From Sphingosinicella sp. BN140058 (GTDB lineage: Bacteria; Pseudomonadota; Alphaproteobacteria; Sphingomonadales; Sphingomonadaceae), in the NCBI RefSeq assembly GCF_004135585.1, contig NZ_CP035501.1, positions 855,001 through 919,000 on the forward strand: a stretch of DNA of 64,000 nucleotides, given 5' to 3'. The translations under genes and the position numbers were made by a program. This document shows, one piece after another, positions 1,810-62,219 of this stretch; the first letter of the stretch is position 1, and each line of letters starts with the position of its first letter. The notes beneath the pieces were generated by a model. The model was given only the letters and a program-made list of their open reading frames with translations, ran no database searches and was not told the DNA's origin.

Positions 1810-4350
1810 ATGACCGCCGAGACCTCGACCCGCTTCACCCTCCACCGCGACGCAGGCGCGCGCTTCGGAGGCTTTTTCCGCAATGCCTGGAGCCGGCGGT
1901 GGGTGAGGATGCTCGCCATTCTCGCCGCGCTTCCGGTCATTCTGTACGGCGCCCTGTGGCTGCTCTTCGCCCGCGACCTGCCGTCGGCCGAATCGCTGCT
2001 CACCTACCAGCCGCCGCTGCCGACCAACGTCCGCGACATCAACGGCGAGCCGGTGCAGACCTTTGCGCGCGAACGCCGGGTCGAACTGAGCTACGACGAA
2101 TTTCCGCAGCAGCTGGTCGACGCCTTCACTTCGGCCGAGGACAAGACCTTCTTCAGCCATGGCGGCATCGATTATCCCGGCCTGGTCGGCGCGGTCGGAG
2201 ACTATGTCTCCAAGGTCGGCAGCGGCGCCCGGGCGCGCGGCGGATCGACGATCACCCAGCAGGTCGCCAAGAACCTTCTGCTCGGCGACGAATATTCGGT
2301 GACCCGGAAGATCAAGGAAGCCTTCCTGGCACGCCGCATCGAAAGCGTTCTGACCAAGCAGCAGATCCTGGAGCTGTATCTCAATCAGATCTTCCTCGGC
2401 CGCAATGCTTACGGCGTGCAGGCCGCAGCGCGCGCCTATTTCGACAAGGACGTCACCGATCTCACTTTGCCCGAGTCCGCCTATCTCGCCATTCTTCCCA
2501 AGGCGCCGAGCAATTACGATCCCAACCGCAATGCCGAGCGGGCGACCGAGCGCCGCAACTGGGTGCTCTCCGAGATGGAGCGCAACGGCAAGATTTCCGC
2601 AGCCGAGCGCGACGCGGCGCAGCGGGAGCCGCTCGGCACCGTGCAGTTCGCCCGCAACACCGTGCGCAATTTCGGCGGCTATTACATGGAAGAAGTGCGT
2701 CGTCAGCTGATGGAGCGCTATGGCAGCGAGACCGAGAAGGGCCCGAACGGCGTTTACACGGGCGGCTTGTGGGTGCGCACCTCGCTCGACGTGCCGAAGC
2801 AAAAGGCCGCGGAGACGGCGTTGCGCGACGGCCTCGTCCGCTACGATCGCGGCAAGGGCTGGCGCGACCCTGGCCTGTCCGTCGACATCGACAAGAATTG
2901 GGCGGCGCAGCTCGCCCGCGCGCCGATCGGCACCGGCTATGAGGATTGGCGGGCTGCGGCCGTGCTCGACAAATCGGGCGGCAGCGCCACCATCGGCTTC
3001 GCCGACGGCAGCCAGGCCAGCCTCCCCGCCTCGGCCGCCTCGATGCCGAAGCGCGGCACCGCCACGGCCGCGTTCAACTTCCTTCGGCCGGGCATGGTCA
3101 TCGTCGTCAAGAAGGAAGGCGCCGGTTACACGCTGCGGTCGATCCCGGAAATCCGCGGCGGCATGGTTGTCGAGGAGGTCTCGACCGGCCGGATCCTGGC
3201 GATGCACGGCGGCTTCGACGCCAAGGGCGACGACTTCAATCGCGCTGTTCAGGCGCAGCGCCAACCGGGCTCCACCTTCAAGCCGATCGTCTATTCGGCA
3301 GCGCTCGACAACGGCATGACTCCGGCGTCGATCGTCGTCGACGGCCCCTTCTGTGTCTGGCAGGGCGCGGGTCTGGGGCAGAAATGCTTCCGCAACTTCT
3401 CCGGCGGAAACGCCGGGCCGCAGACGATGCGCTGGGGCATCGAGCAGTCGCGCAACCTGATGACGGTGCGCACCGCCAACCAGACCGGCATGGACAAGGT
3501 CACCCGCCTCGCCCGCATTCTCGGCGTCGGCGAATTTCCCAATTACCTTTCCATCGCACTCGGCGCGGGTGACACCACCGTGCTCAAGATGACCAATGCC
3601 TTCGCCATCCTCGCCAATAACGGCAAGCAGGTGACGCCGACGGTGATCGACTACGTCCAGGATCGTAACGGCAAGGTGATCCTGCGCGCCGACACGAGAC
3701 CGTGCGAAGGCTGCAACGCCCCGGACTGGAACGGCAAGCCGATGCCCCGGCCGCCGCTTCGCACCAAGCAGCTGATGGATGCGATGACCGCCTATCAGAT
3801 GGTCCATATCCTGGAAGGCGTCGTTCAGCGCGGCACCGCCCAGGTGCTCCGCGATCTCGGCCGGCCGCTGTTCGGCAAGACCGGCACCACCAGCGGCCCG
3901 ACCAACGTCTGGTTCATCGGCGGATCCCCTGACATCGTTTCGGGCATCTACATGGGTTTCGATCACCCGCGGCCGATGGGCGGCTATGCGCAGGGCGGAA
4001 CCCTGGCGGCGCCGATCTTCAAGCAATTCGCGCAGGTCGCCTTCAAGGATGTCCCGCCGGTGCCATTCCGCGCCCCGGCCGGCATTCGAATGGTCCGGAT
4101 CGATCGACGGTCCGGCCGCAAGGTGTTCGGCGAGTGGCCGACGGACGATCCGAAGGCGGCGGTGATCTGGGAGGCGTTCAAGCCTGAGAGCGAACCGCGC
4201 CGCACCCTGCAGCGCTATGGAACCGGGCCGCAGGCCGTCGCCACCACTGCGGCGGCACCGCGGGCGGCGCGCCGGGCGGCAGCCCCGCGACCGCAGGCGA
4301 AGGCGCCTTCGACCAGCGAGTTCTTGTCAAATCAGGGCGGCATTTACTAG
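1810..4350 (+). CDS. mrcA: Penicillin-binding protein 1A, bifunctional
   Basis: Class A penicillin-binding protein: polymerises glycan strands from lipid II and cross-links stem peptides on the periplasmic side of the inner membrane. A cytoplasmic N-terminus is followed by one membrane segment (about residues 35-54, MLAILAALPVILYG). The glycosyltransferase domain has the catalytic Glu110 in SAEDKTFFSHGG and RGGSTITQQVAKNLLL. The transpeptidase has SxxK (Ser488, GSTFKP), SRN (Ser547) and KTGT (Lys690). The C-terminus is an Ala/Pro/Arg-rich tail. The ATG at 1810 is preferred because MTAETSTRFTLHRD looks like a natural cytoplasmic start; an in-frame ATG at 1777 would add 11 residues. About 846 residues, normal for the family. 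Confidence 0.94.
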   Translation: MTAETSTRFTLHRDAGARFGGFFRNAWSRRWVRMLAILAALPVILYGALWLLFARDLPSAESLLTYQPPLPTNVRDINGEPVQTFARERRVELSYDEFPQQLVDAFTSAEDKTFFSHGGIDYPGLVGAVGDYVSKVGSGARARGGSTITQQVAKNLLLGDEYSVTRKIKEAFLARRIESVLTKQQILELYLNQIFLGRNAYGVQAAARAYFDKDVTDLTLPESAYLAILPKAPSNYDPNRNAERATERRNWVLSEMERNGKISAAERDAAQREPLGTVQFARNTVRNFGGYYMEEVRRQLMERYGSETEKGPNGVYTGGLWVRTSLDVPKQKAAETALRDGLVRYDRGKGWRDPGLSVDIDKNWAAQLARAPIGTGYEDWRAAAVLDKSGGSATIGFADGSQASLPASAASMPKRGTATAAFNFLRPGMVIVVKKEGAGYTLRSIPEIRGGMVVEEVSTGRILAMHGGFDAKGDDFNRAVQAQRQPGSTFKPIVYSAALDNGMTPASIVVDGPFCVWQGAGLGQKCFRNFSGGNAGPQTMRWGIEQSRNLMTVRTANQTGMDKVTRLARILGVGEFPNYLSIALGAGDTTVLKMTNAFAILANNGKQVTPTVIDYVQDRNGKVILRADTRPCEGCNAPDWNGKPMPRPPLRTKQLMDAMTAYQMVHILEGVVQRGTAQVLRDLGRPLFGKTGTTSGPTNVWFIGGSPDIVSGIYMGFDHPRPMGGYAQGGTLAAPIFKQFAQVAFKDVPPVPFRAPAGIRMVRIDRRSGRKVFGEWPTDDPKAAVIWEAFKPESEPRRTLQRYGTGPQAVATTAAAPRAARRAAAPRPQAKAPSTSEFLSNQGGIY

Positions 4351-4424: not shown

Positions 4425-5552
4425 ATGCGCGCCGAAGCGCAAGCCCATGTCGACCAGATCCGGTCGGCTCTCGCCCTCCTCCGCCGCTTCCTCGACTGGG
4501 ATCGCGCGCTGGCGCGGCTCGACGAGCTCAACGCCCGCGTCGAGGATCAAAGCCTCTGGAACGATCCCAAGCTCGCCCAGGACGTGATGCGCGAGCGCCG
4601 TCGTCTCGAAGAGGCGATCGGCGCGACCCGCGGCATCGAGAAGGAGCTCGAGGATACGATCGAGCTCAGCGAGATGGCCGAAGCGGAGGGCGACGAAGGC
4701 CTCGTCAACGATGCGATCGAGTCGCTGGCCCAGCTCGCCGAACGCGCGGAGCAAGACAAGGTCAAGGCACTGCTCGCCGGCGAGGCCGATGCTAACGACA
4801 CCTATGTCGAGATCAATTCGGGCGCCGGCGGCACCGAGAGCAACGACTGGGCTGGCATGCTCCAGCGCATGTACACGCGCTGGGCCGAACGCCACGGCAT
4901 GAAGGTGGAACTGATCGATTATCACGCCGGCGAGCAGGCCGGGATCAAGTCGGCGACCCTGTTGGTCAAGGGCGAGAATGCCTATGGCTATGCCAAGACC
5001 GAGAGCGGCGTCCACCGCCTCGTCCGGATCAGCCCCTATGACAGCTCGGCGCGCCGGCACACCAGCTTCGCGTCGGTCTGGGTCTATCCGGTGGTCGACG
5101 ACAATATCGAGATCGAGATCAACGAAAGCGAATTGCGCATCGACACCTTCCGGGCGTCGGGCGCCGGCGGCCAGCACATCAACACCACCGATTCGGCCGT
5201 GCGCATCACCCACCTGCCGTCCGGCATCGTCGTTCAGAGCCAGGCGCAGCGATCGCAGCACAAGAATCGCGCCGAGGCCTACAGCCAGCTGCGCGCCCGC
5301 CTCTACGAGGCCGAGCTGCAGAAGCGCGAAGCGGAAGCAAACGCGACCAATGCGACCAAGACCGACATCGGCTGGGGCCATCAGATCCGCTCCTACGTCC
5401 TGCAGCCCTATCAGCTGGTCAAGGACCTGCGCACCGGCGTGACCTCCACCGCGCCGTCCGACGTGCTCGACGGCGATCTCGACCGCTTCATGGCCGCCGC
5501 CTTGTCGCAGCGCGTCACCGGCGAAAAGGTCGACGTGGAAGATGTCGATTAA
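4425..5552 (+). CDS. prfB: Peptide chain release factor 2
   Basis: Class I release factor that reads UGA and UAA stops and triggers peptide release on the ribosome. At 375 residues it has the normal length. GGQ is at 248-250 ([15 protein letters not shown]) and the stop-codon recognition tripeptide reads SPY (203-205, [15 protein letters not shown]) where the classical form is SPF. The reading frame is continuous from the ATG, with LWND around residue 45, so the programmed +1 frameshift known from E. coli prfB is absent. AGGAG-like bases (TTGGAGAAATTCG) precede the ATG. It overlaps the next gene by 11 bases, which suggests co-translation. Confidence 0.96.
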
Positions 5553-51920: not shown

Positions 51921-52214
51921 GTGACGATAAGAACCATAGACATCAAGGTAGCCAGCAATGGCCGTATGGTCCTGCCCCTGTCGGTGCGGAAGGCTATGGG
52001 CCTACACGGGGACACGAAGGTCATCCTCACCATCGAGGAGGACGAAGTGCGACTGTCGCCGATCGCCCGCGGTGTCTCTCGCGCGCAAGCCCTTTACCGG
52101 GAACATGCCAAGGCGGTGCGTACGACCGATGACTTCCTGAGCGACCGGAAAGCGGAAGCGCTCGCGGACACAAGCGACGCTGATGCTCCAGGTCCGAAGA
52201 AGGTATCCAAGTGA
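51921..52214 (+). CDS. vapB: VapB-type antitoxin, AbrB fold
   Basis: 97 residues. The N-terminal swapped-hairpin AbrB/MazE DNA-binding domain reads IDIKVASNGRMVLPLSVRKA, then GDTKVILTIEEDEVRLSPI. The C-terminal half is charged and probably unfolded until it binds the toxin. GTG start. It overlaps the vapC start by 4 bases (GTGA), the usual toxin-antitoxin order. The pair most likely represses its own promoter. Confidence 0.85.
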   Translation: MTIRTIDIKVASNGRMVLPLSVRKAMGLHGDTKVILTIEEDEVRLSPIARGVSRAQALYREHAKAVRTTDDFLSDRKAEALADTSDADAPGPKKVSK

Positions 52215-52597
52215 CCTCGGTCGTCTTCGATGCATCCGCGGTGTTGGCGCTTGTCCGGGATGAGCCGGGCGCCGACAAGGTCGTGCCCCATATCGGACGT
52301 GCCGCGATCTCGGCGGTCAACCTTCAGGAGGTCGTCAAAGAGCTGCTCCTGAGCGGCCTGGATGAGCCTACCGTACGCGAGTTGCTGAACGAGCTACGCC
52401 TCGACGCTCGCGCCCATGACGTCGAAGCCGCATACGCCGCCGCGGCACTGCACGCGCAGACAAAGGAATTTGGGCGCGGCCTCGGCGATCGCTCCTGCCT
52501 TGCGTTGGCGATGCAGCTCGGCGCGCCGGCTCTGACAGCTGATCGCGACTGGAAGAAGGTCAAAGTGAAGAACCTCAAGATCGAGCACATCCGCTAG
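52211..52597 (+). CDS. vapC: VapC-type PIN-domain toxin ribonuclease
   Basis: 128-residue PIN domain. Acidic metal-binding set: VVFDASAVLALV (Asp7), AVNLQEVVKEL (Glu), LGDRSCLALAMQ (Asp) and ALTADRDWKK (Asp). VapC toxins cut tRNA or rRNA; the target here is unknown. GTG start overlapping vapB. All four acidic positions are kept, so it may be active. Confidence 0.88.
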   Translation: MTSVVFDASAVLALVRDEPGADKVVPHIGRAAISAVNLQEVVKELLLSGLDEPTVRELLNELRLDARAHDVEAAYAAAALHAQTKEFGRGLGDRSCLALAMQLGAPALTADRDWKKVKVKNLKIEHIR

Positions 52598-53003
52598 GCG
52601 ACAAGGCGCTCCTCTCCGCTCCTAATGTTCCTCCCCCATTCGAGACATTCGCGATCGCCGCCTGCTACGTCGCGGATGCACCCCTAAATAGGACATACCG
52701 CGGCACGTCGACTTATGTCCGCTGTGCAACCCCGAAGCGGACATTACCTCGGAGATCCGGGCAGGCGCAACGAACGCGGCCGTCCCTCGGCGGAGTCCAG
52801 CGAACCGTCGACTCTCACGGGAGCGCGAAGGTCCGGTTGCTCACTAAAAGCCGACAATCGAGGCGAGCCGAGGTCGGCCAAGCTCCTACAACCGGGTGCG
52901 ACCCTAATCGGACATTGCGAATGGCCCGGGGCGCTGCATAGGCCCAGCTACCGGCTTCCACGCTGGGCGAACTCTTCGTATTCCGGAGCCGGCCGTTAAC
53001 GGA
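52598..53003. other. Intergenic stretch holding the first dispersed repeat copy
   Basis: 406 bases without a credible gene. It includes a partial copy of the 145-bp repeat family (52830-52918) and a second right-end-like piece near 52730 (GAAGCGGACATTACC). Confidence 0.5.
52830..52918 (+). repeat. Dispersed palindromic repeat, copy I (right part)
   Basis: Shares GGTCCGGTTGC in the middle and the right end CTCCTACAACCGGGTGCGACC, read CCTAATCGGACATTGC, with the other copies. The left end is not recognisable. Confidence 0.65.
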
Positions 53004-53753
53004 CTACAGCCGGGCGACTTCCCGCGGCGGCACGGAGGCCACAGATTGCAGGTAACACCCGCGCACTCCGCGTGACTGCACCATGTCGACGAGGTCCTTT
53101 GACCAATACCAGCCTCCCGCATCAATATCCGAGAATGAAGCCACGCCTTGGAGGTCGTTACCATTGAAGACTACACCATCAGGAAACTTGACAACTCGGA
53201 AGCCGTAGGACGTGTCTTTGATGACCACTTTGGTTCGCCGCGGATCGACCGCTTCGATGACACGACGCGGCATCACTGCGTGGAACGGCAGCTTCGCATC
53301 CTTCGCTTGAACGTAGAATTCGACGTGCTCCAGCGATGCGGGGTCGACCTGCTCGATTTGCCGGAACAGCGCATCGGAGATGAAGAACACGTCTTGATCG
53401 GGATGATAGAAATCTACAACATCCTTCGAAGATCCCTTAAACCTGACATCGGGAACCGGCAGGATCGCCAGCGGAATTCGGGCGGTGGTCCGACTACCGT
53501 TCCACGGGGATGCTTCCATTGACGGCCTGTTAGCCCAGTCGAGCCGCGCTGGCCGATAATCGAAACTTTGCCGCACTCGATAGTAGCGCTCTTCGCTGGG
53601 AACAGGGATCGTCATTCCGAATGTGGAGATCTGTCCTTCCGGTGCCTCCTTGAACATTTGACCGACTGTGAGTTCCGAACCCTGCATCACCATGGTTACC
53701 ACCGTATCATTACGTCTCACCATTCCCGCGCCGCTATGCTCGAAATCGAGCAT
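53004..53753 (-). CDS. Hypothetical protein, weak Imm11/DUF1629-like features
   Basis: About 249 residues without signal or membrane segment. Visible blocks: SFDYRPARLDWANR, VDFYHPDQDVFFISDALFRQ, LEHVEFYVQAKD, and a C-terminal SFSDIDAGGWYWSKDLVDMV then RGVRGCYLQSV. The layout (N-terminal segment, then a domain with 'dvFvSdr' style strand) reminds me of Imm11/DUF1629 proteins seen as immunity partners of toxins, but the match is weak and no toxin gene is adjacent. The start is uncertain: ATGs at 53816, 53753, 53723 and 53693 are all possible and none has a clear ribosome site. It is flanked by repeat copies I and H. Confidence 0.6.
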   Translation of the reverse strand: MLDFEHSGAGMVRRNDTVVTMVMQGSELTVGQMFKEAPEGQISTFGMTIPVPSEERYYRVRQSFDYRPARLDWANRPSMEASPWNGSRTTARIPLAILPVPDVRFKGSSKDVVDFYHPDQDVFFISDALFRQIEQVDPASLEHVEFYVQAKDAKLPFHAVMPRRVIEAVDPRRTKVVIKDTSYGFRVVKFPDGVVFNGNDLQGVASFSDIDAGGWYWSKDLVDMVQSRGVRGCYLQSVASVPPREVARL

Positions 53754-53847
53754 GGGGTCACGGGCAGTTGACCGCCAAACTGAACAACTCACCAGCCGCT
53801 GAGAGCCATACGCCAATTGACTTCACGGGCGCATCCCTGCCATCAGG

Positions 53848-53991
53848 AATGTCTGGTTTCCACCCCACCCGGCTGTTACCGCCGCGATGGCAGGCGACCC
53901 TGCGAAGGTCCGCTTCTGCGCGACACCCTGACCTTCGCCGCCGGCGCGTGCATGTGGGGGCCTAGGACGTGCTCCGACCCATTGCGGACAT
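53848..53991 (+). repeat. Dispersed palindromic repeat, copy H
   Basis: Left end ATGTCTGGTTTCCACC, then CACCCGGCTGTTACC, middle AAGGTCCGCTTCTGCGCGAC, right end GCTCCGACCCATTGCGGACAT. The right end is the reverse complement of the left in outline (ATGTCCGCAATGGGTC). It ends 10 bases before the next gene. Confidence 0.8.
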
Positions 53992-54000
53992 CCAGAGTCG

Positions 54001-54483
54001 ATGCGAAGAGACGCTATGGGAAAGTTCGGCGTCGGCAGCGTGATCGCATCAGGATTGGCACTGGCACCGGCGTTAGCGCCGGCCTCGCCAGGTCTATCGG
54101 CTTCCGACCCAACGCACGTAGCCCGAACATTTCTGGAAGCCTTCGCCAATCGCCCAGCTTCCACGAGAGCACTGGTCACCACGGATGCAGTGATTGTGCT
54201 TGGAGACATCGGCGATAGATACTCGCGGTTCCTGAGAGAGGTTCGGCCGCAGGCGAAGTGGCTAAACACGTGCCGCGTGGGATCGCTAGAGACGAAGCCA
54301 CTTCCACCTGCTGCGGAACTGAACAGCGAAGACTCCCCTCCATGGCTTAGAGGCGGTCCATTTGCTCTCCTTGAAGGCACCTACTCCTGCGTTGGTCCGA
54401 ACGGCAGCAACACGGATGTTCGTGTATCGGTGGCGTTGAACAACGGTCGGGTCGCGCAATTTACGATCGGGCGGATGGACTAA
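54001..54483 (+). CDS. Exported hypothetical protein, SnoaL-like outline
   Basis: 160 residues with a hydrophobic N-terminus (GSVIASGLALAPALAPASPG), a likely signal peptide. The middle ASDPTHVARTFLEAFANRPA, then TTDAVIVLGDIGDRYSRFLR, resembles the first helix and strand of NTF2/SnoaL-like proteins; the end VSVALNNGRVAQFTIGRMD fits the last strands. Function unknown. ATG at 54001 or 54016 (MGKFG). It lies between repeat copies H and G. Confidence 0.6.
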   Translation: MRRDAMGKFGVGSVIASGLALAPALAPASPGLSASDPTHVARTFLEAFANRPASTRALVTTDAVIVLGDIGDRYSRFLREVRPQAKWLNTCRVGSLETKPLPPAAELNSEDSPPWLRGGPFALLEGTYSCVGPNGSNTDVRVSVALNNGRVAQFTIGRMD

Positions 54484-54519
54484 ACAGCACCATTTCCGCA
54501 TCGCTGCACCCCTATTGCG

Positions 54520-54664
54520 AACGTCGCCTTTCCACCCGTTTCGGCTGTTACCGGCGCCATTGCGAGCCGCGGCGGCGAACGTCCGGTTGCACGCGACAGA
54601 CGGACGTTCGCGCCTGGCCGACATCGCCCGGGCTCCTACAGCCGCCTGCGACCCAAACATGACG
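54520..54664 (+). repeat. Dispersed palindromic repeat, copy G
   Basis: Left end AACGTCGCCTTTCCACCCG, then TTTCGGCTGTTACCGGCG, middle AACGTCCGGTTGCACGCGAC, right end GGCTCCTACAGCC and TGCGACCCAAACATGACG. It begins 37 bases after the stop of the preceding gene. Confidence 0.8.
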
Positions 54665-54749
54665 TAGCCATTGGGCCGGAACGGCAGGAAGGGCCGACTT
54701 GCGGACATCACCTCGAGACCGGTAAGCCCTCTCTCACTAGGAGACTACG

Positions 54750-55946
54750 GTGACGACTTCGATCAGAGGCGACGAGGAGAGGCAAGCGATTGTATGCAGC
54801 CTTCTAAAATCGCGCGCCCTGCGGTGGCGCGGGTCTCTTCCTTCGCGTCACCACCTGCTGCGGGCTGGTCATATCAAGACGTCTTTGCTGGCCAGCCTCA
54901 TTCTGCTCCTGGTTCCTGCCTGCTCCAAGGCCGCACCTCCTGAGATGGTCACCTCTCTTGATCTAAAATTCGAATGGGGGGCGAAGAACCACTCTGTCAG
55001 GGCGACTATTGCATGCGAGGCTAGGTCCAGCCCGGCGGGCGACCGAACCTATTACGTACCTAAGCATCCGGTGGTCGCCCGATTTGGAACAGGTGCAGTC
55101 ATCATCGACAACGAGGGTGGCGGGTCTAGCGGCCTTTGCCAGGAGCGTGCCTATGGATCCCGCGAGCTTGGACTCGACTACATGGGGCCTGAACTACATA
55201 TCATCGACGATCTCAGAACATCCAGCCGATACGAGGTGGTCCAGCTTGCTGCTCGAGGCGCGCACTTCGTTACGCGGCAAGGCATCACGCTGCTCAAGTA
55301 TGAAGTGAGAAAGCGTGATGGAGCCGATCCGAGGCGAGGAGAAGGACGATCCCAGTCCTTGTTGAATAAGATCTTCGCCAATGCTCCTGGCACCAACACG
55401 GCGACCATGTTCACCCCATTAGTCTTCAGCCCATTTTTCTTGCAGGAGAGAGGCCCAATCTCGGGGACCGATGAGCATCCTCTGCGGCGGAGGCTCCTGG
55501 CGTTGCGCGCGGATCAAGTCCTTGGTGCGTGTGAGCTGTTCGCATATTCTGATTTGCGAGCATTGTTGTCGAAATATGTTCCGCCGGATTGCGCACACCG
55601 AAAAACCGAGTTTGTTCCCAAACCCGTGGCCTCGCCGACACTGGACCCCAGCCCGATGGCACTGGGTCAAGATGGCGTCTGGACCACGGGAGGGGCGAAC
55701 TGGGACCAAAGCTACGCGAGGGTCGGTGGGCGCTGGTGTGACGTCCAAACGGCTAGCGCAACCGACGATGAGCTTTGGAAGCGTTGCGTAACAAAGGTCA
55801 GATTGCTGATCGATAGCGGCAACGAGGAGGTCCCGATCAAGGCGCCCATGGGCTTCTGGGACTTTGAATCTCAGAAGTTCTGGGTGTTTGTTCCGATTGT
55901 TCATCGGAAATACCTTAATCTCACGGCACTCTGGGGGACGGAATAA
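54750..55946 (+). CDS. Hypothetical lipoprotein
   Basis: 398 residues in the longest reading. A hydrophobic stretch followed by a lipobox-like Cys (SLLASLILLLVPACSK) stands about 45-60 residues from the ATG, so translation probably starts later, near 54850-54880, perhaps at a non-ATG codon. The mature part is about 340 residues with several Cys and Trp and a C-terminal block PMGFWDFESQKFWVFVPIVH. I recognise no family. Codon use looks less GC-biased than in the core region. It stands between repeat copies G and J. Confidence 0.6.
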   Translation: MTTSIRGDEERQAIVCSLLKSRALRWRGSLPSRHHLLRAGHIKTSLLASLILLLVPACSKAAPPEMVTSLDLKFEWGAKNHSVRATIACEARSSPAGDRTYYVPKHPVVARFGTGAVIIDNEGGGSSGLCQERAYGSRELGLDYMGPELHIIDDLRTSSRYEVVQLAARGAHFVTRQGITLLKYEVRKRDGADPRRGEGRSQSLLNKIFANAPGTNTATMFTPLVFSPFFLQERGPISGTDEHPLRRRLLALRADQVLGACELFAYSDLRALLSKYVPPDCAHRKTEFVPKPVASPTLDPSPMALGQDGVWTTGGANWDQSYARVGGRWCDVQTASATDDELWKRCVTKVRLLIDSGNEEVPIKAPMGFWDFESQKFWVFVPIVHRKYLNLTALWGTE

Positions 55947-56070
55947 TTATGTTGACGCGGTCATCTATTCTACTTGGCCGAAGGGAATGGCTTAGAACTG
56001 ACGTCAAGGATTTTAGAACTTGATTTTTCTGCAACATCGACAGCACGCCGGACAGCGCCATGCCCGGGAG

Positions 56071-56205
56071 ACCGCCCGACTAAGCTGTTCCCGGTGAAAT
56101 CGCCTGCCTTGGCAGCGAAAGTCAGCGTTCGCGCCGCAGCCTAACCTTGGCATTTAGATTTGCCAGATCGGGGGGCTACGACGCGCGCCGACCCATTACA
56201 GTCAT
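56071..56205 (+). repeat. Dispersed palindromic repeat, copy J (degenerate)
   Basis: Recognised by CTAAGCTGTTCCCGG, GTCAGCGTTCGCGCCG, GGGGCTACGACGCG and the right end GCCGACCCATTACAGTCAT. The left end is poorly kept. Confidence 0.65.
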
Positions 56206-56400
56206 GCAGACGAGTACTATGGTGCACCCAAGGCCGACTCTGACCAGCCCACTGCGCATTGGGGCCGCCTGATCAGCTCTGTTGTCTGGTTCCTCGCCGG
56301 AGCCATTCTGCTTCAGCCGATGGAGGGCTTGCTCGTCGAGAGCTGCTTTCGGGAAGGGGCTCCGGCTCTTTTCAAGCACCTCGCTTCGGCGGTGCGTTGA
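56206..56400 (+). pseudogene. Possible remnant of a small membrane protein
   Basis: The frame ending in TGA near 56400 reads ADEYYGAPKADSDQP, then a hydrophobic segment LISSVVWFLAGAILLQP and a tail LLVESCFREGAPALFKHLAS. No in-frame start codon is present before the segment; the only ATG after repeat J is in another frame and stops after 22 codons. It could be a frameshifted small membrane protein or a chance reading. Confidence 0.3.
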
Positions 56401-56479
56401 CAGCGACGACTGGCCTCGCAGCGCCCATCGGGTCCGCGGCCTGTGCGGCGTGCACCCCCCTTGCTCGATCTGACGGCTA

Positions 56480-56625
56480 GGTCCGTTTTCCAGCCGATTC
56501 GGCTGTTCCCGGCGGCACCCGGCGCCGGGAACAGGCTACGTCCGCTTACGCCAGGCAGGCTGACGATCGCGCCGCCACCGGCAGGATCAGGGGGCTACAG
56601 CGCGGATCGACCCAAAGCGGACCTT
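56480..56625 (+). repeat. Dispersed palindromic repeat, copy E
   Basis: Left end TTCCAGCCGATTCGGCTGTT, middle TACGTCCGCTTACGCCAGGC and GACGATCGCGCCGCC, right end CTACAGCGCGGATCGACCCA continuing AAGCGGACCTT. With copies D and F it forms a subgroup having TACGTCCGCTT in the middle. Confidence 0.8.
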
Positions 56626-56716
56626 CGACTGAGGTACGTCCTTTATCATGTTGGTGTCGGTCTCGCATTCGCCAATTCTAGTGGCGCCGCAACGTGCCCC
56701 GGCATATCTCTCCGCA

Positions 56717-57175
56717 ATGCGATGTCGGCTCATCCTCCCCGTCCTTCTTGCAGGCTGCTCGCCCCAAGCTTCGGAAACGCCTTTCGACACGTCGCTAGAG
56801 GGATATGGTGGACAGGCGCGCTTCGCAGGTATTCTGTCCTTCAGCCCGCATGATGTCGACTTCACTGAGTGCGGTGCTCCGGCGGAGTGCAAGTCGCGAT
56901 GGCGCACGTGCGGCGTCGCTATGACGGAGAGGGCAAATCGCGAGTGGCAAGCTCAAGCACAGTGGAAGGGACCCGTCGAGGAGCCGACGGTCTGGCTTGA
57001 ATTTGTTGGCCGCAAACGGACGGACCCACGGCTTCTTACCGAAGCAGGGTTACTGACCCAGGACTGCCAAGTTCGCATAGAGCAGGTGTTGGTATCATGC
57101 CCCTCCGACGGCAGCATCTTTGTTGGAGAAGGCCTCCCGGCGGCGCCAGCATGTGCGAGGCAAGCCGCAGACTGA
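56717..57175 (+). CDS. Hypothetical lipoprotein, paralog 1
   Basis: 152 residues. Lipoprotein signal with LLAGC (Cys14). The mature part has several Cys (FTECGAPAECKSRWRTCGV) and WQAQAQWKGPVEEPTVWLEF, ending VGEGLPAAPACARQAAD. It is a close paralog of the protein at 58458-58913 (most positions identical), and the flanks are also shared (GGCATATCTCTCCGCAATG before the start; ATGTCTGGAATCCACCC after the stop). I recognise no family. Start by analogy with its paralog and the lipobox position. Confidence 0.75.
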   Translation: MRCRLILPVLLAGCSPQASETPFDTSLEGYGGQARFAGILSFSPHDVDFTECGAPAECKSRWRTCGVAMTERANREWQAQAQWKGPVEEPTVWLEFVGRKRTDPRLLTEAGLLTQDCQVRIEQVLVSCPSDGSIFVGEGLPAAPACARQAAD

Positions 57176-57191
57176 AACAGGGCTTCATCAG

Positions 57192-57338
57192 AATGTCTGG
57201 AATCCACCCGATCCGGCTGTTCCCGGCGCGATCGAAGGCCGCGGCGCCCGATGTCCGGTTGCGCGCGACACGCCGACGTTCGCGCCTGGTCCGGAGCGTC
57301 CTCCATCCTACAGCGCGGATCGACCCGTTGAAGACCTT
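57192..57338 (+). repeat. Dispersed palindromic repeat, copy A
   Basis: Best-kept copy. Left end AATGTCTGGAATCCACCCGA, then CCGGCTGTTCCCGGCG, middle GATGTCCGGTTGCGCGCGAC and GACGTTCGCGCCTGGTCCGG, right end CCTACAGCGCGGATCGACCC. CGATCCGGCTGT on the left pairs with ACAGCGCGGATCG on the right. Begins 17 bases after the stop of lipoprotein paralog 1. Confidence 0.85.
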
Positions 57339-57362
57339 CGTCATTTCGATCAGACTGATGCG

Positions 57363-57542
57363 GTGAGAGGCGTATCGATCCTCGCGGGAGCAATCGTAGG
57401 GGCGGTCCTCGCCATCCTATTCCTCACGCCGGCACGAGAGGTTTTTTCTGCTCGTGGGTACGTGAACGCGGGCATGGGCTTGATCTTCGGCGGCCTCTGC
57501 GGCGGGTCGCTAGCCGCATGCTTCCGGCGCCCTAGGGCGTAG
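57363..57542 (+). CDS. Small membrane protein, two predicted helices
   Basis: 59 residues from a GTG at 57363: VRGVSILAGAIVGAVLAILF, then TPAREVFSARG, a second hydrophobic stretch AGMGLIFGGLCGGSLAACF and a basic end RRPRA. Two membrane segments with a short loop. No family recognised. The start is uncertain because no clear ribosome site is seen. It begins 25 bases after repeat copy A and ends 3 bases before copy D. Confidence 0.5.
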   Translation: MRGVSILAGAIVGAVLAILFLTPAREVFSARGYVNAGMGLIFGGLCGGSLAACFRRPRA

Positions 57543-57544
57543 GG

Positions 57545-57689
57545 AACTTCGGCTCTCCACCCTGCCCGGCTGTCCCAAGCGGCCGCAAGCGCCGCGGCGG
57601 CCTACGTCCGCTTTCTCGAGGCAGGCCGACGTTCGCCCCTCGTCTGGCCTTCGCGGGCTCCTACAGCGGGATCGACCCATTGCTGACAT
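57545..57689 (+). repeat. Dispersed palindromic repeat, copy D
   Basis: Left end AACTTCGGCTCTCCACCCTG, then CCCGGCTGTCCC, middle TACGTCCGCTTTCTCGAGGC and GACGTTCGCCCC, right end CTCCTACAGCGGGATCGACC continuing CATTGCTGACAT. Begins 3 bases after the preceding stop. Confidence 0.8.
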
Positions 57690-57730
57690 GCGACTCTCCG
57701 GGCAAGATCGCACCTTGAGAGGGAACTGAC

Positions 57731-58213
57731 ATGCGTCACGCAGCGACTGTCACATGTTTGTTGCTAGCGCTAACGGGGTGCGCCTCAGCCCCAGCAGGTA
57801 TCCAGCGGCGTCCAGAGATTGTCATCGACATATCGCAACTTCGTGCTGCTGGCCCCGGATGGCAGAGCGAACTGGTTGATTGCTCGGACGCAGAATTTTC
57901 GTGCTTCGAAGCACCCAGTCGTTTTCTACTCGCTTTCCCGAAGTCCTGCCCAGGCAAACCTTGGCTGGAGAATTGGATCGTCGCGGGTTATCGCTTCCGT
58001 TTCACTGCGCCGGATGCCCACGACGTTCTACCTGGTGGCGGGTATGTTTCCGACAAGTACCCTCACTCGCACCTGACGTTCCGAGCCGGCATAGGATTCA
58101 CCTCCTTGTGGATCCGCTCCAACCCAGTGATGAGCGACAATTGGGGAGGGAGCAGCGTCGCCGAGTACGACTTCAAATACGTGGGCAGGGCCTCGCCTTT
58201 TCGCTGTGGCTGA
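57731..58213 (+). CDS. Hypothetical lipoprotein
   Basis: 160 residues. Signal MRHAATVTCLLLALTGC with lipobox Cys17. The mature part includes PEIVIDISQLRAAGPGWQSE, then FLLAFPKSCPGKPWLENWIV and a C-terminal WIRSNPVMSDNWGGSSVAEY. No family recognised; probably an all-beta periplasmic domain. AGAGGG precedes the ATG at 10 bases. Lies between repeat copies D and B. Confidence 0.7.
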   Translation: MRHAATVTCLLLALTGCASAPAGIQRRPEIVIDISQLRAAGPGWQSELVDCSDAEFSCFEAPSRFLLAFPKSCPGKPWLENWIVAGYRFRFTAPDAHDVLPGGGYVSDKYPHSHLTFRAGIGFTSLWIRSNPVMSDNWGGSSVAEYDFKYVGRASPFRCG

Positions 58214-58223
58214 GGCTCGCGAG

Positions 58224-58368
58224 GCGTCCGCCTTCCACCCGATTCCGCTGTCACCGGCGCCATCGAAGGTCGCGGCGGCGGATGTCCGGTTGCGCGCGAC
58301 AGGCTGACATTCGCTCCTGGTCCGGAGCGTCCGCAATCCTACAGCGCGGAACGACCCTTCTCAGACAT
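58224..58368 (+). repeat. Dispersed palindromic repeat, copy B
   Basis: Left end GCGTCCGCCTTCCACCCGAT, middle GATGTCCGGTTGCGCGCGAC and GACATTCGCTCCTGGTCCGG, right end CCTACAGCGCGGAACGACCC continuing TTCTCAGACAT. Begins 11 bases after the preceding stop. Confidence 0.8.
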
Positions 58369-58457
58369 AAAGAGGCTATTTTGTCCCCATCTTAGTGTCG
58401 ATCTAACAATTTCCATATGTATTAGCGCCGGAACCGGTTTTGGTATATCGCTCCGCA

Positions 58458-58913
58458 ATGCGACGTTGGCTTATCTTTGTCCCCCTTGCGGGCTGCTCGC
58501 CGCAAGTCTCGGAGACGCCTGCCGATCCGTCGCTAGCCGGGTATGGTGAACAGGCGCGCTTCGCAGGAGTTCTTGAAATCGGCCGGCATGAAGTCGTCTT
58601 CACTGAGTGCGGTACTCCGGCGCAGTGCAAGTCGCGATGGCGCTCGTGCGGCGTCGAGATGACGAAAACGGCCAATCTCGAGTGGCAAGCTCAAGCACAA
58701 TGGAGGGGTCCCGTCGAGGATTCGACAGTCTGGCTTGAATTTGTTGGCCGCAAACGAACGGACCTACGGCTCCTTGCGGAAGCAGGCTTGCTGACAGTGG
58801 ATTGCCAAGTCCGCGTAGAGCAGGTCTTGGTATCATGCCGCTCCGAGGGACGCATTTTTGTTGGAGAAGGTCTCCCTCCGGCGCCAGCATGCGCGAGGCA
58901 AGGCGCAGACTGA
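58458..58913 (+). CDS. Hypothetical lipoprotein, paralog 2
   Basis: 151 residues. Close paralog of the protein at 56717: the same lipobox region (PLAGCSPQ), FTECGTPAQCKSRWRSCGVE, WQAQAQWRGPVEDSTVWLEF, and the same end PPAPACARQGAD. Upstream GGTATATCGCTCCGCAATGC matches the sequence before paralog 1, so the duplication covered regulatory DNA as well. Function unknown. It is followed after 17 bases by repeat copy C. Confidence 0.75.
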   Translation: MRRWLIFVPLAGCSPQVSETPADPSLAGYGEQARFAGVLEIGRHEVVFTECGTPAQCKSRWRSCGVEMTKTANLEWQAQAQWRGPVEDSTVWLEFVGRKRTDLRLLAEAGLLTVDCQVRVEQVLVSCRSEGRIFVGEGLPPAPACARQGAD

Positions 58914-58929
58914 AGCAGAACGTCATCAG

Positions 58930-59075
58930 AATGTCTGGAATCCACCCTCTCCGGCTGCTCCCGGCGCGATCGAGCGGCGCCGCGACGAAGGTCCGGTTAC
59001 GCGCGCCAAGCCAACGTTCGCGCCGCCGTGAGCGCGATCACCGCGCTACAGCGCGGACGAACCCGTTTCGGTCAT
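58930..59075 (+). repeat. Dispersed palindromic repeat, copy C
   Basis: Left end AATGTCTGGAATCCACCCTC, then TCCGGCTGCTCCCGGCGCG, middle GAAGGTCCGGTTACGCGCGC, right end CGCTACAGCGCGGACGAACC continuing CGTTTCGGTCAT. Ends directly at the stop of the convergent Crp-type gene. Confidence 0.8.
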
Positions 59076-59819
59076 CTAAGCAGGATGTCCTCTTCCCCTG
59101 CGCGATTGGCGAAGGTGAAGGTAATCGTCGTTGAAGCCACCGGCCTCGCGTAAGCCGCCAACGTCGAGAACGGTCATTTCACGATGATGCTGTTCGACCA
59201 GCCCCTCTGAACGAAGCCTCTTGAGCGTCCGATTGATGTGCACGGCTGTCATGCCGGTCGCGTCCGCAAGCTCTTCCTGCGTGATAGGGAGGCTGAAGGT
59301 ATCATCTTCTACGAGGCCAACCGCCTTCATCCGCAGGTGCATCTCGCAGAGAATGTGAGCGACGGCTTCATAAGCGTCGCGACGACCCACGTTGACGATC
59401 CACTCCCGAAGGACGGCGGAGTCGATCAGTGTCATTCTCCACAGGCCCTTTGTTAGCGCCGTTCTCTCCGAGGTGATCCTCTCCAGCACTTCAGGATCGA
59501 GATGGGCGACCCTGCACGGCGTCAGTGCACCGATGGCGTGATCCATCTTCTCTAGGATGTCTACGTGGAGGTCGCAAAAGTCGCCCGGGATCAGGAACGC
59601 GGTAATTTGGCGCGACCCGTCAGGTAGCACCGTGTAACGTGCTGCCCAACCTTCAAGAATCAAATGGACTTTGTCGGGAACTTCACCATTGCGGACGATG
59701 TCTCGCTTTGCGCCCACCTCCGTTACATCTTCCGAGCAAAGCGCATCAACGAGCACCCGATCCTCATGGGCAAGGTCGACCACTTGCTCCAGTTTACAGG
59801 TCAGCGGGTTATACAGCAT
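59076..59819 (-). CDS. Crp/Fnr family transcription regulator
   Basis: 247 residues. Cyclic-nucleotide-binding-like beta domain (about 20-125, VHLILEGWAARYTVLPDGSR, ITAFLIPGDFCDLH) and a C-terminal winged helix-turn-helix (LPITQEELADATGMTAVHIN, RTLKRLRSEGLV). No Cys cluster for an iron-sulfur cofactor as in FNR is seen, so the signal is unknown. The ATG at 59819 is preferred over 59855. The stop adjoins repeat copy C. The upstream region was interrupted by the IS at 59905, about 85 bases before the start, which could have changed its promoter. Confidence 0.85.
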   Translation of the reverse strand: MLYNPLTCKLEQVVDLAHEDRVLVDALCSEDVTEVGAKRDIVRNGEVPDKVHLILEGWAARYTVLPDGSRQITAFLIPGDFCDLHVDILEKMDHAIGALTPCRVAHLDPEVLERITSERTALTKGLWRMTLIDSAVLREWIVNVGRRDAYEAVAHILCEMHLRMKAVGLVEDDTFSLPITQEELADATGMTAVHINRTLKRLRSEGLVEQHHREMTVLDVGGLREAGGFNDDYLHLRQSRRGRGHPA

Positions 59820-59887
59820 GGCTGGACAACTATCGATGAATTGCGTCGCACTCAAGCATCAAGAAGCCCGTCTTCCGCCACGAGTGG

Positions 59888-59904
59888 AACGTCGGCTTAC
59901 CACC
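59888..59904 (+). repeat. Dispersed palindromic repeat, copy F, left end cut by the IS
   Basis: AACGTCGGCTTACCACC equals the left end of the repeat family (compare copy G, AACGTCGCCTTTCCACC). The rest of the copy continues at 61467 after the insertion sequence. Confidence 0.75.
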
Positions 59905-61466
59905 GAGGCTGTGTGAAAACGCCGCCGGGCTGATTTCACGGAGATGATGTGAGCGCGCGCGGTGACGCTTGTCAGCGTCCGACCGCCGCCAACGCTGCCG
60001 GCATGCCCAGGATCGCGATCACGCGCTTGATGTTGTAGGCGAGGACGCACAGGCTCATCTCGGTTCCTACGTTTTTTAGCCCTTTGGTTCGGAAGTGGGT
60101 GGCCCCCATCCACTGCTTCAAGGTGCCGAACGTGTGTTCAACGGTTTGCCGCCTGATCCGCATGGCATCGGGCATTTTGTCGATGCGCTGCTGCATCGCA
60201 TCGAGCACGTGCTCGTGCTCCCATCTCCTGATCCGGCGCTCTTTGCCGGTGGTACACTTGGCTTTCATCGGACAGGCGGCGCACGAGCTTGCCCAATAGA
60301 CGTGCAGCGTCTTGCCGGCTTCGACGCTGTCGAAGCGGTAGGTCAGCGTCTCGCCGGCCGGGCAGCGATAGGTGTCGGTGTCGACGTCGTAGATGAAGTC
60401 CTGCTTCCCGTAGCGACCTTGCGCCTTGGCCCCTGAGGTGAGCGGTTTGGGTATGATCGGCGTTGCGCCCAAGGCCTCGCAGGCGCGCACCTCCTCGCCG
60501 CCATAATAGCCGCGGTCTGCGAGCACGGTCAGGCGTTCGCCGTCCATCTCTGCCTTGGCCTTACGGCCCATGTTGGCGAGCTGAGAGCGGTCGTGGCCAA
60601 GGTTGGTTACATCGTGGGCGACGATCAGGTGATGCTGCGTGTCGACCGCGGCTTGCACATTGTAGCCGACCATGCCGGTGCCCTTGCCATTGGTGGCCAT
60701 TGCACGTGCATCCGGATCGGTCAGCGAGATCTGCCCGTCAGGCACGTCGGCGAGCGCCGCCTCCATGTCGCGCAGAGCCTGCATCTGTTCGCGTAGCCGG
60801 GCTAGGCGTTCGTTCAGCCGTACCGAGCGCAACGCCGAAGTCTCGTCGTCCTGACGATCGGCCGTGTCGAGCTGAGCGAGATAGCGCGCGACGCTCGCGT
60901 CGACCTGTTCGATCCGGCGCCGAACCGCGTTGGGCGTGAAGTTCTTGTCGCGCGTGTTCACCGCCTTGAACCGTGATCCATCCACGGCAACGACGCCGCC
61001 GGCGAGGAGGCCCATCTGTCGGCACAGCAGCACGAACCGGCGGCACGTCGCCTTGATCGCATCACCATTGTCGCGCCGGAAATCCGCAATCGTCTTGAAA
61101 TCGGGAGCCAGCTTGCCGATCAGCCACATCGCCTCGACATTGCGTCCGGCTTCACGCTCGAGCCGGCGGCTCGACAGAACCTGGTTGAGATAGCCGTACA
61201 GATACAGCTTCAGCATGGTCGCCGGATGATAAGCGGGTCTGCCCGTTGCCGCAGGGCGGGCACCGGTGAAGCCTAAAGCAAGTAGATCGAGTTCGTCGAT
61301 GAAGGCATCGACCAGCCTGACCGGATTATCCGCACCGACATAGTCGTCCAAGCATTCCGGCAGAAATGCCGCTTGGCGCCGGTCCTGTCCCTCGACGAAA
61401 CGCCCCATCCGGCCCTCCCTCGCATCGACCGGATCCTATCACATCAGCACGTTTTCACACAGCCTC
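59905..61466 (-). mobile_element. Insertion sequence, IS1182 type, complete
   Basis: 1562 bp with 17-bp perfect terminal inverted repeats GAGGCTGTGTGAAAACG (59905-59921 and, reversed, 61450-61466). The target duplication is CACC on both sides (59901-59904 and 61467-61470). One transposase gene fills it. It is inserted in repeat copy F, which is restored when the IS is removed. Confidence 0.92.
59972..61408 (-). CDS. IS1182-type transposase
   Basis: 478-residue DDE transposase. N-terminal part with FLPECLDDYVGADNPVRLVD and the IS1182 signature region YHPATMLKLYLYGYLNQVLS and SSRRLEREAGRN. Catalytic positions: Asp143 (VVAVDGSRFKA), Asp in VLADRGYYGGEE, and Glu in RRQTVEHTFGTLKQWMGA. A Cys cluster (SSCAACPMKAKC) precedes the last motif, as usual in this family. 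Intact, so the element may still move. Confidence 0.93.
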   Translation of the reverse strand: MGRFVEGQDRRQAAFLPECLDDYVGADNPVRLVDAFIDELDLLALGFTGARPAATGRPAYHPATMLKLYLYGYLNQVLSSRRLEREAGRNVEAMWLIGKLAPDFKTIADFRRDNGDAIKATCRRFVLLCRQMGLLAGGVVAVDGSRFKAVNTRDKNFTPNAVRRRIEQVDASVARYLAQLDTADRQDDETSALRSVRLNERLARLREQMQALRDMEAALADVPDGQISLTDPDARAMATNGKGTGMVGYNVQAAVDTQHHLIVAHDVTNLGHDRSQLANMGRKAKAEMDGERLTVLADRGYYGGEEVRACEALGATPIIPKPLTSGAKAQGRYGKQDFIYDVDTDTYRCPAGETLTYRFDSVEAGKTLHVYWASSCAACPMKAKCTTGKERRIRRWEHEHVLDAMQQRIDKMPDAMRIRRQTVEHTFGTLKQWMGATHFRTKGLKNVGTEMSLCVLAYNIKRVIAILGMPAALAAVGR

Positions 61467-61594
61467 CACCCGATTCAGTTGTTCCGGTCCGGAGGCGGCG
61501 CCAGCCCAGGCTACGTCCGCTTTCGCCAGGCGGGCTGACGATCGCGCCGCCACTGACAGGATCACGGCGCTACAGCGCGGATCGACCCTTGGAT
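61467..61594 (+). repeat. Dispersed palindromic repeat, copy F, main part
   Basis: Continues copy F from the IS target duplication: CACCCGATTCAGTTGTTCCG, middle TACGTCCGCTTTCGCCAGGC and GACGATCGCGCCGCC, right end CTACAGCGCGGATCGACCCT. It ends where the broken transposase begins. Confidence 0.8.
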
Positions 61595-61850
61595 GAGGTG
61601 CACCTCCTCGCACAGTTGGCGTTCGGAGCGGATCCCGTGCGTATAGCCGATGATCGGCATGCGGATCATTGACTCCGGATCGATCGAGGCTCGACTTGTC
61701 TCGCTGTAAATGGGGTCGCAGATGCTCGCGAATGCTCGACAGGTCGACAAACCGGTCAGTACGCCTCAGCAGGTGGCCGTCCGGAACATGGCGCTCCAAG
61801 GTGAACCCGTAGAACAGCGCCTCCTGCATCACCGTACGCTCACCCATCAT
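61592..61850 (-). pseudogene. Truncated, frameshifted transposase (second IS1182-type element)
   Basis: The minus strand reads MMGERTVMQEALFYGFTLER, then HVPDGHLLRRTDRFVDLSSI and REHLRPHL. After a frameshift near 61695 it continues PIYSETSRASIDPESMIRMP, IIGYTHGIRSERQLCEEVHL. This is the N-terminal 85-90 residues of an IS1182-type transposase different from the intact one nearby. The coding similarity stops at the right end of repeat copy F, so the remainder was lost there. Confidence 0.8.
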
Positions 61851-62219
61851 CGGCTCGCCTCCCGTCTTGCTCAGGGGCAGTGAATCAGAGTCCAGTCGTC
61901 AGTGCAACGGGAGTCTCTCAACATTATCTCACCTCTCCGGTTGCTCCCGCCGCCATTGCTTGCGACGGGAAAATACGTCGCCCTTCGCGCCGGTGACGAT
62001 GGTGCGTGCGCTGCGGATCGAGGCCGCTGGTCGTCCCATCCGCCATTGCGCTCGTTCAGCACCGGTGCGAACGTCACGCGATGACACGTTTGACGCTGCT
62101 GCTGCCGGAAAGCGCGACGCGCGAATGCTCGGGCCGTGCTCCTTAACGGCGTGGGCGGCGATTTCTTTGCTGTCGTACCAGTGCATTGAACCCGGTGGCA
62201 CACAGGCCACCGGATCGAT
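61851..62219. other. Intergenic stretch before the RTX gene
   Basis: About 370 bases without a convincing gene. A degenerate piece near 61930-62050 (CCTCTCCGGTTGCTCCCGCC) may be an eleventh, decayed repeat copy. A hairpin CCGGTGGC / GCCACCGG at 62192-62213 lies just after the stop of the RTX gene and could help end its transcript, though it lacks a T-run. Confidence 0.4.

Follow-up and report, generated by a model that had tools for sequence, protein, structure and literature searches.

A stretch of 64,000 nucleotides of the Sphingosinicella sp. BN140058 genome (C1:855001-919000 of 6.07 Mb; hereafter the window) carries, near its right end, single genes alternating with copies of an imperfect palindrome of about 145 bp. 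The question raised by this locus is whether the palindrome is an ordinary intergenic repeat or the recombination site of a gene-cassette array, and both had been suggested by the first-pass annotation of the window, which was made from the letters alone. Our analysis favors the second answer: the array is probably part of a chromosomal gene-cassette system, integron-like in its working, whose cassettes are exchanged by site-specific recombination at short spacers. It is not a canonical integron, because the integron integrase stayed below its cut-off and the canonical attC boxes are missing, and its mechanism is one that we infer.

Ten copies of the element were found by profile search at window positions 52819-61602, all on the + strand, with scores of 36.8-110.2 bits (E 9e-10 to 1.2e-32), and the array was found to run beyond the window end, to about C1:925 kb. 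The number, length, alternation with genes and single orientation first noticed were thereby confirmed, as were the inverted ends and the inner arms (CGATCCGGCTGT / ACAGCGCGGATCG). The consensus of 65 full copies was AATGTCNGNTTT-CCACCC-GATTCGGCTGTT...CTACAGCGCGCT-NCGACCC-ATTGCGGACATT, in which the outer arms are inverted copies of each other, and so are the inner arms, the right inner arm of some copies being one base longer. The two 6-bp spacers repeat each other directly except at base 2: with the spacers located by a profile that itself includes them, this base was C in 117 of the 124 sites on the left and G in 118 of the 124 on the right. Since the arms are inverted pairwise and the spacers are direct copies, the element amounts, as we read it, to a removable body of about 111 bp with a simple site on either side.

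To obtain genome counts, the sequence model was rebuilt from 145 copies and a threshold of E<=1e-6 was applied. At least 121 matches were present in the BN140058 genome and at least 100 in Allosphingosinicella deserti (strain GL-C-18, genome G015, same genus; one genome per species was compared throughout); 122 candidates were scored in each, and both counts are lower bounds. The copies were clustered and not evenly spread. In BN140058 they formed nine clusters, at about 129-137, 411-416, 655-677, 907-925, 3921-3925, 3952-3970, 4093-4094, 4859-4905, and 4946-4963 kb; outside these, a few weak matches stood singly. The 227 matches of the two genomes fell into 18 cluster/strand groups, and every cluster lay on one strand; weak opposite-strand matches (<18 bits) overlay forward copies, because the element centre is itself palindromic. 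Array direction agreed with that of replication, as judged by GC skew, in eight of the nine BN140058 clusters, cluster F being the exception; in A. deserti 3 of 10 regions disagreed and a fourth was near zero, so no relation between the two directions is claimed. The 145-bp element gave no match in 24 other genomes of the genus (2 of 26 positive) or on the plasmids searched, and among 397 genomes of the family and 396 of the order it matched the BN140058 genome alone, in scans with stricter filters and eight scored candidates per genome that would miss weak relatives. The idea that this is a known dispersed repeat of alphaproteobacteria thus failed for the 145-bp element and held in part for a 30-bp core palindrome described below. 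The two array-bearing species also have the largest of the 26 genus genomes (6.1 Mb; the rest 2.4-5.0 Mb).

The gaps between copies (80-4000 bp; n=192 in the two genomes) had a median of 555 bp. A single open reading frame (ORF) filled at least 70% of the gap in 131 of the 156 gaps of 200-1300 bp, compared with 28 of 156 after base shuffling. ORFs were called mechanically by length, with base shuffles as controls, because codon-usage scoring trained on window positions 1-50000 reached few gaps (best ORF >20 in only 24 of 190). The gap-filling ORFs ran with the element in 80 cases, 60 of which had their stop in the interval from 40 bases ahead of the repeat to 11 bases into it, and this part of the earlier suggestion that the repeat sits at gene ends was borne out. 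However, 51 ran opposite, so the repeat is not strictly a feature of gene 3' ends. When 128 cassette ORFs were scanned against Pfam, 26 families were matched, none in more than three ORFs, including Imm11 (three) and single cases of Barstar, GNAT acetyltransferase, Crp regulator, and signal peptidase II.

Furthermore, to judge from shared cassettes, the enclosed genes have been exchanged between arrays and between the two species. Whole-gap duplicates were located in different arrays or in both species; for example, the cassette at 52919-53844 with a weakly Imm11-like gene also occurs in A. deserti C11 (93.9%), and that of the Crp/Fnr-type regulator at 59076..59855 has a 100% identical counterpart in array F, 3 Mb away. 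The neighbours of duplicated whole-gap cassettes never matched each other, and all such duplicates kept the same direction relative to the element; copies of an insertion sequence (IS) and a few partial matches were inverted. The outcome named as refuting in the first-pass annotation, evenly spread copies and no exchange of the enclosed genes, was thus the opposite of what we observed, with exchange compared between arrays and between two species.

If the intervening genes were shuffled by RecA-type homologous recombination between copies of an ordinary dispersed repeat, the edges of shared DNA should fall anywhere in the body. The edges were mapped for ten shared-cassette pairs, and the basis of what follows is five decisive pairs and one array-edge joint. 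The downstream edge lay directly after the left CCACCC in all five readable pairs (identity >=93%), with support spanning at most 12 bases on the gene side and, in one pair, 27 bases on the body side. In a sixth pair (88%) the shared DNA ended 5 bases beyond the left CCACCC; one more was unreadable owing to an IS, two had no clear edge, and one (82%) shared body sequence. Of the ten upstream edges, two were at the right CGACCC, three pairs carried the upstream body and began near its first bases, two began in or just after the right arm, and three were unclear. Window positions 52700-52915 aligned with the array edge of A. deserti (C11), through the edge half-element. From 52899 onward the alignment was instead to a different A. 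deserti element, at its right end, and to the cassette following it, about 3.6 kb further in; A. deserti has two extra cassettes at the orthologous array edge. Before 52899 the edge copy alone matched, and the first base past CGACCC agreed with the inner copy, not with the edge copy. Because the match switches from one copy to the other there, the recombination joint is placed within CGACCC at 52899-52904, or, on the strictest reading of the alignment, no later than 52915. Homologous recombination is therefore regarded as unlikely: the 145-bp copies are long enough to recombine, and the three upstream bodies shared and the 82% pair (D:911629/D:913372) would suit it, but the resolved downstream edges were not scattered over the body, the array-edge joint lies in the right spacer, random body pairs are just 62% alike, and one-gene arrays also occur in congeners with sites of 30 bp.

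The bodies were compared in the same way. Of 7293 body pairs, 99 were at least 85% alike, and in 95 of these neither neighbouring gene was similar (at most 19 of 41 bases upstream and 21 of 47 downstream); one pair was identical throughout, with outer arms matching at 6 of 13 bases each. Bodies, to judge from these pairs, move as well as genes. That a whole site travels downstream with its cassette, as in an integron, is contradicted, since the shared DNA stopped at the left spacer in 5 of 5 pairs.

A body-less form of the site was present in congeners. The pattern arm-CNACCC-arm gave 2 matches in BN140058, 1 in A. deserti, and 10-37 in eight congeners (G002, G004, G009, G012, G017, G020, G022, and G023), in which the reversed control pattern gave 0-2. 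In BN140058 the body-less matches were only parts of long elements or half sites, save a degenerate site at 52713..52748, which has a counterpart at the A. deserti array edge. From 18 loci chosen for their sites (15 of the genus and three of G059), the core-site consensus was AANGTCCGCTTT-CSACCC-ATTGCGGACATT, about 30 bp, with two inverted arms around 6 bp. One ORF filled at least 70% of 35 of 46 core-site gaps of 200-1300 bp, compared with 2 of 46 after shuffling (site spacing was viewed without G004, G017, and G022). Moreover, when the cassette proteins of the two species were compared with the core-site loci by tblastn, eight matches of 28-54% identity were obtained, six of which lay between neighbouring core sites less than 1 kb apart and two did not. 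In G023 the sites were paired 35-36 bp apart, the left with CCACCC and the right mostly with CGACCC, which repeats the compound layout on a smaller scale, the body being about 30 bp. Core sites of G020 (L102 4501-4674, 5557-5648, 10097-10189) were arranged in inverted pairs, spaced by about 58 bp, and in a +,-,+ triple, which makes a third form of compound site. In G003 core-like sequence recurred every 500 bp, four times per contig (C4:446-1969 and C101:5476-6999), and this genome was counted as site-poor because 8 of its 14 core matches are copies in such tandem repeats. An 8.6-kb IMG/VR contig had two core sites 788 bp apart in one orientation (L118 7604, 8392).

Look-alikes of the core palindrome were also observed on plasmids of Pantoea, Duffyella, Rhizobium, and others; those of Pantoea, Duffyella, and one E. 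coli plasmid had similar arms (TGTCCGCTTT...GCGGACA) and other centres (e.g. TTCGCTCA). Palindromes between genes on Pantoea and Duffyella plasmids would fit the view that repetitive extragenic palindromic (REP) sequences or miniature inverted-repeat transposable elements (MITE) insert at gene ends, with the gene spacing as a by-product. In that case the repeat should move while its neighbours stay, and this was not seen: gene segments, and not repeats alone, were duplicated and moved with sharp edges, and each cluster kept a single orientation despite mixed gene direction. We consider this explanation very improbable.

We also asked whether the arrays could be a decayed true integron, like a cluster of attC sites lacking an integron integrase (CALIN), with the integrase lost and the attC sites strongly diverged. 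The element has a length like that of the Vibrio cholerae repeat (VCR), a two-site layout, an extra inner-arm base, and lineage-specific bodies, and most of the compact cassettes match no Pfam family, the remainder including immunity proteins and an acetyltransferase. Nevertheless, the attC boxes RYYYAAC and GTTRRRY were matched in 1 and 0 of 124 elements, respectively, at or below the shuffled expectation (2.2 and 0.7); the downstream body does not travel with the gene; and integrons are stated in one paper to be entirely absent from the Alphaproteobacteria (PMC9668308). The search for an integron integrase suggested in the first-pass annotation gave three partial TIGR02249 matches in the BN140058 genome, the best of 72.7 bits against a cut-off of 265, and 14 control genomes also gave below-cut-off matches. 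A decayed integron thus appears quite unlikely. The suggested likeness to a cassette array with attC-like sites stood as far as clustering, orientation, one gene per gap, and fixed edges are concerned; it did not as regards the integrase and the boxes. When eight copies were folded as single strands, two clearly beat their shuffles (z -3.8 and -2.5) and six did not (z -0.2 to -1.3). A consensus fold over the 145 copies, which are of mixed subtype, gave 0 pairs, perhaps because the body subtypes differ. Arm pairing was also tried as a signature of circularisation and was dropped, as no register from -3 to +2 stood out.

A tyrosine recombinase had likewise been proposed as something to look for, and one was found that we treat as a candidate only. 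It is a 209-residue PF00589 protein at C1:3937564-3938190, between the divergent clusters at 3921-3925 and 3952-3970 kb, and its nearest solved relatives by sequence are Xer recombinases. Of 60 relatives, 15 had homologues (E<=1e-10, fragments included). In G002 and in G059, which belongs to another family, core or core-like palindromes lay within 80 bp on both sides of the homologue; in G020 core sites lay about 0.6 kb away on each side, and in G003 one weak site lay about 0.56 kb away. Within the genus, homologues at E<1e-50 occurred in 5 of 10 site-rich genomes (at least ten core sites, or long elements) compared with 1 of 16 site-poor ones (exact one-sided p about 0.02, by hand). A stop interrupts the homologues of G003 and G004, the G009 homologue is partial, and the family as a whole is very common, with 8000 relatives scored. 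On plasmids, a strict arm pattern, which fails to pick up the G020 sites as well, placed an arm palindrome 1.3 kb from the Pantoea homologue, and a profile placed two palindromes 1-2 kb from the E. coli pPGRT46 homologue.

Taken together, the cassette system probably works as follows. A cassette is a single gene with inverted 12-bp arms at its ends (AWWGCGGACATT ... AATGTCNGNTTT), and an asymmetric 6-bp spacer, either CCACCC or CGACCC, links one cassette to the next. At the junctions of BN140058 and A. deserti there is in addition a non-coding body, about 111 bp long, which brings inner arms of its own and gives the layout arm-CCACCC-inner arm...inner arm-CGACCC-arm, which corresponds to two simple sites side by side, as in attC. 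A site-specific recombinase, probably a tyrosine recombinase and possibly the candidate above, would cut at the spacer; the spacer asymmetry would fix the polarity of the array while leaving genes free to face either way, and cassettes may move as circles.

Several observations weigh against this cassette system. Recombination was read from sequence edges, with one genome per species; the edges were unclear in the less similar pairs, the D:911629/D:913372 pair shared some 26-79 bp of downstream body, and 4 of the 99 near-identical body pairs also shared downstream DNA. The direction of cassette genes was mixed (80:51), and in most integrons cassette genes do not lie in mixed directions. Core sites of G020 were on both strands, so strict polarity is weakened there. 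Left and right arms did not covary, within or between neighbouring copies, in registers -3 to +2. As for the enzyme, no match to the candidate was found in A. deserti, three other genomes of the family carry the gene with no more than one core site, and neither strict pattern nor profile showed a site within 2.5 kb of 8 of the 10 plasmid homologues.

As shown in Table 1, the window array consists of a degenerate site, ten element copies, and the genes between them. No relative of the protein at 56648..57175 was found at E<=1e-5 in the protein collection searched. The IS in copy 10 (1558 bp, with GAGGCTGTGTG ends) is flanked by CACC on both sides. Three copies of it, in the window and at C1:134982 and C1:3955058, occupy an element's left CCACC spacer and are bordered by CACC at each end, and a fourth, in A. 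deserti, lies at another ACCACC (fetched regions only); such insertion is reminiscent of ISs that target attC sites. The element was also matched weakly and in part at 61930-62012 (14.8 bits, E 0.007), perhaps a decayed copy. At the left edge of the array, positions 51921-52594 encode a MazE-like antitoxin and PIN-domain protein pair. An Rfam scan of the array gave two matches, both at chance level, and when tRNA or tmRNA genes were sought as an anchor of the array, none was found in the window and two tRNAs were found in 1 of 32 loci.

Table 1. Features of the window array and plasmid look-alikes (window positions unless a locus is named).
Feature	Position	Strand	Basis or remark
Degenerate body-less core site (arm-CAACCC-arm), array edge	52713..52748	+	Read directly; same layout as congener core sites
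Element copy 1, right half only	52819..52918	+	Profile match
Cassette gene, 270 aa, weakly Imm11-like	53004..53816	-	Below Pfam cut-off
Element copy 2; body 53866-53974	53845..53994	+	Profile match
Cassette gene, 160 aa	54001..54483	+	No Pfam family at E<=0.01
Element copy 3; body 54538-54648	54517..54668	+	Profile match
Cassette gene, 398 aa	54750..55946	+	No Pfam family at E<=0.01
Element copy 4; body 56078-56188	56057..56208	+	Profile match
Element copy 5; body 56496-56607	56475..56627	+	Profile match
Cassette gene, 175 aa	56648..57175	+	Paralogue of 58440-58913
Element copy 6; body 57210-57320	57189..57340	+	Profile match
Cassette ORF, 59 aa	57363..57542	+	Mechanical ORF call
Element copy 7	57542..57692	+	Profile match
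Cassette gene, 160 aa	57731..58213	+	No Pfam family at E<=0.01
Element copy 8; body 58241-58351	58220..58371	+	Profile match
Cassette gene, 157 aa	58440..58913	+	Diverged duplicate of 56648-57175
Element copy 9; body 58948-59058	58927..59078	+	Profile match
Cassette gene, Crp/Fnr-type regulator, 259 aa	59076..59855	-	
Left arm and spacer start of element copy 10	59884..59904	+	Severed by IS
IS with DDE transposase (478 aa, 59972-61408)	59905..61466	-	In CCACCC spacer of copy 10
Element copy 10, remainder; body 61472-61582	61451..61602	+	Profile match; first bases are the IS end
Plasmid palindromes	L123:4003; L124:1609, 4003, 4043; L150:4392; L149:4110, 356		

A wider interpretation, which we put forward tentatively and hold at somewhat under an even chance, is that sphingomonads have a cassette system unrelated to integrons, in which a compact tyrosine recombinase would act on 30-bp core sites of 12-6-12 layout, and genes and non-coding mini-bodies would be interchangeable modules. 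The 145-bp compound site of Allosphingosinicella may then have grown by insertion of a mini-body, converging on the attC layout and suggesting how attC sites could arise. A separate cassette system in the Alphaproteobacteria would suggest that evolution has more than once produced a way of stockpiling single genes behind a recombination site. It would also explain why these genomes contain many small genes of unknown function, and it offers a testable path by which a simple dif-like core site could become an attC-like compound site. In a keyword literature search, no title among the matches listed named such cassette arrays.

Among known systems, REP sequences, bacterial interspersed mosaic elements (BIME), and other intergenic palindromes are short, lie between genes, and occur in many copies. 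The present element is likewise a short intergenic palindrome in many copies, but the genes that it encloses move with sharp edges. The resemblance to sedentary chromosomal integrons, with the VCR and attC sites of Vibrio, lies in large one-orientation arrays of single-gene cassettes and in a two-site palindromic element of more than 100 bp with lineage-specific bodies and a mismatched spacer between outer and inner arms. VCR sites are described as having R'', L'', L', and R' boxes, with the central spacer unpaired and the terminal structure variable (PMC2727003). In contrast to VCR integrons, the present element lacks the canonical R boxes, no integron integrase exceeded its cut-off, the gene leaves the downstream body behind, genes run in both directions, and congeners use a 30-bp site. 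The dif modules of Acinetobacter are bounded by 28-bp sites, in which two inverted 11-bp arms enclose a 6-bp centre, and are clustered in islands (PMC12907356); these modules lie between C/D and D/C sites. The core described here is like these dif/pdif (XerCD) sites in having two inverted arms of about 11-12 bp around 6 bp and in forming clustered modules, and unlike them in that its arms are of 12 bp and its sites stand in one orientation.

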